Shown here piece after piece: positions 32,462-33,272 of a stretch of DNA of 35,110 bases. Position 1 is the first letter of the stretch. Each line of letters begins with the position of its first letter. The translations under genes and the position numbers were made by a program. A model generated the notes under the pieces. The model saw only the letters and a program-made list of their open reading frames with translations, was not told where the DNA came from and ran no database searches. Source of the DNA: Candidatus Wolfebacteria bacterium (GTDB taxonomy: Bacteria; Patescibacteriota; Minisyncoccia; Phycocordibacterales; Phycocordibacteraceae); NCBI GenBank assembly GCA_002400985.2, contig NVRX02000004.1, positions 1-35,110 on the forward strand, in the 5' to 3' direction.

Positions 32462-32518
32462 AGATATTAGGAAATGCGCACACTTGTGCGTATAAAGATT
32501 TTTGAAGGGGTCATAAAA

Positions 32519-32896
32519 ATGGATTTGACTAAAGAAGGAAGAGGGCGTCGTAACAAACGGCTTCTTGCAGCACAAAATGTTTCCACAGACGCAGAAGCAA
32601 TTGCACTGTGGAATGAAGAAGATAGACCTCAAATTGTCCAATGGACAAGGGTTTATCTAATCAAAAACTCAAAAGTATGGGGGGCAATCAAGCCTTTATA
32701 CGTGAACTGCATAGATTTAGCAGATATTGGACCAGACGCACTCTTGCAAAATATAGCCCTCACTGATCGGGAGCTTGTAGAGCTTGGGGTTGTCACTCAA
32801 AACCCACATGGTGTTTTGAAGCATCCAAACTGTGGGGATTTCACTCGCAAAAGAGTGGAAGAAATTCATAAAAATGGGAATGCAGCAATATGCTGA
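32519..32896 (+). CDS. Hypothetical protein
   Basis: MDLTKEGRGRRNKRLLAAQNVSTDAEAIALWNEEDRP...; own promoter and terminator; start at 32519 chosen over 32474. Confidence 0.7.
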   Translation: MDLTKEGRGRRNKRLLAAQNVSTDAEAIALWNEEDRPQIVQWTRVYLIKNSKVWGAIKPLYVNCIDLADIGPDALLQNIALTDRELVELGVVTQNPHGVLKHPNCGDFTRKRVEEIHKNGNAAIC

Positions 32897-32940
32897 CTGT
32901 TCCATATCCTGACAGGGCGACAACCATTGCCCTGCCCAAA

Positions 32941-32977
32941 GACCTTATAGATGCACAGCATCTATAAGGTCTTTTTT
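32941..32977 (+). terminator. Strong rho-independent terminator
   Basis: GACCTTATAGATGC-ACA-GCATCTATAAGGTC-TTTTTT, 14-bp perfect stem. Confidence 0.95.
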
Positions 32978-32999
32978 ATATGCAACAAACTCTTATCTG

Positions 33000-33074
33000 T
33001 GCGCGCACTAGGATTTGAACCTAGGACCTTTCGAGTATCAGTCGAATGCTCTAAACCAACTGAGCTATGCGCGC
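33000..33074 (-). tRNA. tRNA-Ile (anticodon GAT)
   Basis: Minus: GCGCGCATAGCTCAGTTGGTTTAGAGCATTCGACTGATACTCGAAAGGTCCTAGGTTCAAATCCTAGTGCGCGCA; complete cloverleaf, loop CTGATAC; 3' CCA not encoded. Confidence 0.96.
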
Positions 33075-33144: not shown

Positions 33145-33173
33145 TTGATTTTATTAACAAGAGCTGATATTCT
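33145..33173 (+). promoter_or_regulatory. Promoter for candidate small RNA: TTGATT-N17-TATTCT with extended -10 (TGa)
   Basis: Optimal spacing, TGN directly upstream of -10. Confidence 0.6.
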
Positions 33174-33179
33174 ACGTAT

Positions 33180-33272
33180 GTGCCCGTGAATCGCAAGATT
33201 CATTCAATAAGGAGTTTACTTCGTGTTGTTAACGGGCACATCAAAGCGGCGATCAGCAATGATCGCCTTTTT
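33180..33272 (+). ncRNA. Candidate structured small RNA (~92 nt)
   Basis: 5' GUGCCCGU pairs with ACGGGCAC (33232-33239) closing a domain containing GAAUC-GCAA-GAUUC; then GGCGATCA-GCAA-TGATCGCC-TTTTT terminator. Confidence 0.6.
33248..33272 (+). terminator. Rho-independent terminator (plus-directed)
   Basis: GGCGATCA-GCAA-TGATCGCC then TTTTT. Confidence 0.88.

Follow-up and report, generated by a model that had tools for sequence, protein, structure and literature searches.

What is a short, structured RNA doing between tRNA-Ile and murD, on the strand that encodes neither of them, in a bacterium of the Patescibacteria? The locus lies in contig NVRX02000004.1 of Candidatus Wolfebacteria bacterium (assembly GCA_002400985.2), of which we analyzed one stretch of 35,110 nt, called here the window. 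An earlier note, made from the letters of the window, had proposed a stand-alone RNA gene with its own promoter and terminator. We took up that proposal by covariance modeling, comparison of homologous loci and analysis of the neighboring genes.

The RNA gene between tRNA-Ile and murD

The unit extends from 33145 to 33272 on the plus strand, with tRNA-Ile (32999-33074) on its 5' side and murD (from 33275) as its convergent neighbor, both on the minus strand as the earlier note had them. Its sigma-70-type promoter (33145..33173) is also present as described: the -35 hexamer TTGATT (33145-33150) is separated by 17 nt from the -10 hexamer TATTCT (33168-33173), which is extended by a TGA just before it. 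A simple promoter scan left this promoter, which matches 8 of 12 consensus positions, off its list; we nevertheless take it as real because a promoter is conserved at the same place in the homologues. The predicted start (33179-33180) gives a transcript of about 93 nt and falls at the beginning of helix P1, much as the earlier note had it.

The core of the RNA (62 nt, 33179..33240, plus strand) is predicted to fold into a three-way junction at -39.5 kcal/mol, with a z-score of -6.7, equaled by none of 200 shuffled sequences. P1 pairs 33179-33187 with 33232-33240. The GCAA-tetraloop hairpin that had been noticed inside the unit, GAAUC-GCAA-GAUUC, constitutes P2 (33188..33201), and P3 forms the third arm (33203..33230, predicted pairs 33205-33228). 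P3 holds the AAGGAG that the same note had described as exposed. An exposed, meaningful motif finds no support: in the predicted fold, GGAG pairs with CUUC inside P3, and the motif is not conserved among homologues. The unit closes with an intrinsic terminator (33248..33272) made of an 8-bp stem with a GCAA loop (33248-33267) and a U5 tract ending at 33272. This terminator serves no plus-strand gene upstream, since the upstream terminator of that strand already ends near 32974. The region further upstream (32474-32974, plus strand) holds a 140-aa ORF and then, immediately ahead of tRNA-Ile, a very strong terminator of 17 bp (32938-32974).

The frame opening at GTG 33223 crosses the terminator and continues antisense to murD, and neither this 38-aa ORF nor the other small one (44 aa) matches a Pfam family. 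The author of the earlier note had not recognized motifs of SRP, 6S, tmRNA or RNase P. At the gathering score, Rfam has 0 matches for the window RNA, and none with an E-value of up to 10 is significant.

A covarying RNA family in Patescibacteria

A BLASTN search of 60 relatives with the window RNA matched nothing except itself; the family is detectable by covariance models alone. When a model built from the window RNA alone (R1) was searched against the order (397 genomes), a single good candidate emerged at 28.4 bits (L033), located downstream of rpoD in a genome of another family. Its anatomy matches the layout of the window: a promoter TTGACT-N16-TAACAT, P1 5 nt further, two hairpins and then a terminator. 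The model combining both sequences (R2) found a third member (L035) at an E-value of 1e-11, and in the alignment of the three, two-sided changes already affect 5 pairs, while 97% of cells are paired. These three sequences were used for model R3; the steps from R1 to the second member and from R2 to the third are independent of the inclusion of the window in R3. On the contig that L035 shares with L064, long inverted repeats such as AAGGTCGGACCTCTGCTGAGGTCGGACCTT were seen by eye to recur between genes (L064 270-340, 740-830 and 2080-2220).

With R3, 9 of 380 genomes sampled across the phylum had a match at E ≤ 1e-5; within the order, 20 genomes out of 292 had one at E ≤ 0.01, sometimes in two copies, a count that includes the chance matches G303 and G136. 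Iterated covariance searches brought the members in Patescibacteria to 33 beyond the window RNA. Several candidates were set aside as chance matches: L034, L036 (which spans the atpD/atpC boundary), L186 in a 23S rRNA, L187 in secA, the weak tail of the phylum-wide R3 search and 55 of the 57 pattern matches in the genome-contig collection.

The note had listed covariation in relatives among its checks, and two-sided changes indeed occur in P1, P2 and P3 across homologues from many families. In the alignment of 36 matches (34 true, 2 chance), which was fitted to the model and therefore leans toward the modeled structure, two-sided changes are found in 16 of the 20 pairs and 95.4% of cells are paired, a level reached by 0 of 500 shuffles; slid controls of the same alignment pair 31-44% of their cells. 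For P2, the values are 97.5% of cells paired and two-sided changes in 4 of 5 pairs. Fresh folding recovered a three-way junction in 33/33 regions, preselected for having one, versus 6/33 when shuffled. The promoter is part of the family as well: the gap from the -10 hexamer to P1 is exactly 5 nt in 26 of the 34 true members, the window included, and promoter scores are well above those of random positions (8.65 compared with 4.33). The 3' ends vary, with a separate hairpin terminator in some members and a U tract straight after P1 in others (L098, L099, L100). The stand-alone RNA gene of the earlier note is thus borne out in homologues by compensatory changes, promoter register and terminator or U tract. 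The common features are a P1 of about 9 bp, P2, P3 and short junction strands, all covarying and all found in the window RNA, and the consensus core reads tgTGCttGTg-P2-aTTCgGctaa...GCtGAaggCagGCA.

Two kinds of variant were noticed. In L180, part of the RNA recurs on the RNA strand as GCTCGCGGGGCGTCAGCCCTATTCAGCTAAACAA, within about 25 nt after the first copy, which may be a tandem duplication. In L150, L146, L160 and L164, the P2 or P3 arm is longer while the place, the promoter and a 3' motif of the type AAGCGGGAGACAG are the same; these may constitute a separate RNA subfamily.

The distribution of the family bears on whether it could be a diverged housekeeping RNA (SRP, 6S or tmRNA) or an orphan riboswitch. 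An argument can be made from the signal recognition particle: at E ≤ 1, the small SRP RNA model RF00169 has no match in the window genome (G000) or in 12 other Patescibacteria, whereas 13 of 14 control genomes match. Against a housekeeping role, no more than 20 of the 292 genomes in the order have the RNA, some of them twice. Even when the thresholds are permissive, Rfam matches neither the window RNA nor eight homologous loci, and in the loci read the RNA abuts a convergent gene and leads no downstream one. We consider this explanation hardly credible. The narrower idea of an SRP substitute was rejected although RF00169 had no match in 13 of 13 genomes: SRP models do not match the RNA, and its distribution is too patchy. 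The SRP RNA of these 13 genomes may be divergent, overlooked by this first look, or truly absent.

The convergent partner gene and a putative RNA antitoxin

The gene that the RNA abuts lies on the opposite strand and encodes a protein of some 150 residues, ranging from about 120 to 220 aa, with a conserved FWSxxP motif and invariant H and R residues. A search of the 380 genomes with an alignment of this protein found it in 36, and it is present in 8 of the 9 genomes with a strong RNA match, the exception being the window's own genome. In Pfam, it weakly resembles LPD3 (PF18798), the best matches scoring 27.0-27.3 bits for a curated cut-off of 27; about 27 bits is obtained for 3 of 19 partner proteins (L115, L137, L152), the others scoring lower or not at all. 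LPD3 was described as a domain, with no assigned function, of large polyvalent proteins of phages and plasmids (PMC5512222), whereas the partner stands by itself as a protein and has an RNA gene as its counterpart. Nothing useful came from PADLOC, NCBIfam, PHROGs or the PDB, and the protein was not found in viral contigs (four queries), plasmids or phages (one query each). A single-sequence structure model of one partner reached a pLDDT of 42.

The association between RNA and protein gene is tight from both sides. Starting from the RNA, 30 members were found, of which 19 adjoin an apparently intact convergent protein gene; in two (L103, L185) that gene is broken, and for the other 9 the stretch read contains none. 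Two of these nine still retain the tail of the gene: L176 ends in ...KLFSTMKGDPKKD, to be compared with ...FFNTMKGNPDED in L172, and L173 in ...FTEGIEE, to be compared with FTEGIEDE in L181. Starting from the protein, all 13 matches of the RNA model among 35 loci were convergent and on the 3' side of the protein gene, and protein loci with no R3 match also showed the same anatomy with a diverged sequence. A region test, in which a script required a promoter and a three-way junction starting 2-9 nt after the -10 and the remaining regions were folded individually, identified a three-way-junction RNA in 39 of 43 protein-linked regions; two were ambiguous (L146, L161) and two had none (L163, and L165, whose protein gene contains an in-frame stop). 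In nine measured loci, the distance between the end of the gene and the RNA core is -1 to 40 nt.

The two partners are not lost equally. RNAs without an intact protein gene (11/30) are more frequent than protein genes without an RNA (4/43), with a Fisher p of 0.007, to be taken as indicative because the two sets were gathered differently. This asymmetry is the pattern expected for an antidote and its toxin. Moreover, the distribution is patchy and multi-copy, with several modules in one genome, which we counted for a toxin–antitoxin reading since it is typical of such modules. With a probability of roughly 60%, we therefore favor the reading that the RNA is an antitoxin, which would bind to a toxin protein and so inhibit it. 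The pair would be type III-like, yet it is convergent and non-repetitive and has an unrelated protein; the window copy would be an orphan antidote. A complete module would work as follows: the RNA comes from a short unit transcribed from a promoter of its own, the convergent gene makes the FWSxxP, LPD3-like protein, a presumed toxin and possibly an RNase, and the folded RNA would bind and mask it, as type III RNA antitoxins do. A mechanism in which the RNA inhibits the protein directly fits best because the shape is conserved while the sequence changes, the linkage to the protein is tight, the loss is asymmetric and the spread patchy and multi-copy. The near-obligate pairing of gene and RNA would also fit a protein that has a different, non-toxic task and depends on the RNA for it, be it as a substrate or as a cofactor; solitary RNAs, broken genes beside intact RNAs, multiple modules and patchiness suit a toxin and its antidote better, so that such a ribonucleoprotein appears unlikely to us.

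The convergent layout suggests yet another way of acting. In type I modules such as txpA/RatA, the RNA and protein genes are convergent and their 3' ends abut, as here, and the RNA could be an antisense regulator that pairs with the mRNA of the convergent gene and lowers its expression. With ends only -1 to 40 nt apart at the nine loci, a protein mRNA extended by read-through would be complementary to the whole of the RNA. In the 5' region and the reading frame, predicted cognate RNA–mRNA duplexes do not exceed non-cognate ones in strength (ranks 7, 1, 8, 5, 3, 5, 2, 1 and 9 of 9), and because cognate RNAs pair no better there than foreign ones, antisense action is disfavored and recognition of a shape favored. 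The RNA core also barely overlaps the reading frame, and base pairing with the mRNA would leave unexplained a three-way junction with compensatory changes in three helices. A further difference from type I is the protein itself, about 120-220 aa here and a small hydrophobic peptide there, while the RNA keeps a covarying fold with no excess of cognate pairing in those mRNA regions. We judge this explanation quite improbable.

Direct inhibition would bring the module close to type III systems (ToxIN, CptIN, TenpIN; also avcID), with which it shares a small structured RNA, a single protein gene and a patchy, multi-copy distribution. Known type III systems are bicistronic operons in which a pseudoknotted RNA made of tandem repeats lies upstream of the toxin and a terminator stands between the two (PMC5086642). 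Here, the RNA is convergent and has its own promoter instead of lying upstream in an operon, it is a single three-way-junction unit with no tandem repeats (the partial second copy of L180 excepted), and the partner protein matches only LPD3, weakly, with no match to the ToxN, CptN or TenpN families in Pfam, PADLOC or NCBIfam. Structured RNAs tied to one protein family in conflict-type loci also include the DUF3800 and abiF-associated RNA motifs. Of these, the DUF3800-IX RNA motif is named in PMC7657543. Both the RNA, which has no Rfam match, and the protein family are others in our case. The RNA family and its pairing with the protein were not found in Rfam 15, PADLOC, NCBIfam and the open papers searched, a set that leaves most subscription papers and preprints outside. 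We rate the module as a type III-like RNA–protein pair whose RNA family was previously uncatalogued and whose operon order, repeats and toxin family are unlike those of known type III systems.

Covariation, promoter register and gene linkage thus tie an RNA to one protein family. For the uncharacterized LPD3-like proteins this brings a partner, and with it a function that can be tested, among bacteria that are difficult to culture. Should the RNA inhibit the protein, the known type III families would be joined by an RNA antitoxin that differs from them in shape and gene order, and the orphan copies would represent RNA antidotes occurring in nature. The most far-reaching form of this proposal is a new RNA-antitoxin system, in which a convergent, single three-way-junction RNA with its own promoter directly inhibits a so far unrecognized toxin family in about a tenth of the sampled Patescibacteria and the frequent orphans are kept as protection against incoming modules; we hold it tentatively, at just under even odds.

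The solitary copy in the window

In the window genome, which is 95% complete, the FWSxxP partner was not detected and murD occupies the convergent position. We read the window RNA as a putative solitary antidote because the protein gene was not found; it might be the leftover of a lost module or act in trans as a protection against incoming ones. Eight other members of the family are likewise solitary.

The P3 of the window has diverged from the family consensus UUCGGCUAA...AAGCCGAAG. In its near-invariant stem, UUCGGC/GCCGAA, the window RNA departs at four positions with pairing partly kept: two departures form a paired change from G-C to A-U, one turns a C-G into a U-G wobble and one breaks a junction-side pair. 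The adjacent junction-side pair is broken too, so both are lost. As near-invariant positions have changed, the window RNA may no longer bind any partner. These four departures, all within P3, and a genome with no partner protein lend weight to the view that a lost module has left only a non-functional remnant here, in this one copy of an otherwise real family. The promoter, P1, P2 and the terminator are retained, however, and the paired change from G-C to A-U keeps the helix. We regard a remnant as an appreciable possibility, though one below an even chance; it is compatible with the antitoxin reading and concerns only the present role of the window copy. What is observed is a solitary, diverged and structurally maintained member of the family.

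Comparison with the same region in relatives had also been suggested in the earlier note: in two genomes of the same genus, tRNA-Ile and murD are side by side and a plus-strand promoter is kept, but the transcript between them is a different one. One of these two genomes (G002) possesses a complete module elsewhere (L152). The different transcript at this site (L003:1258-1510 and the same stretch of L004) is a plus-strand unit of about 220 nt with promoter TGGACA-N18-TATAGT and a strong terminator. It contains a 52-aa, Arg-rich ORF behind AAAAGGAG, with no Pfam match for that of L003, and its fold has a z-score of about -3 versus shuffles. Between L003 and L004, every difference read in the 52-aa frame alters the amino acid.
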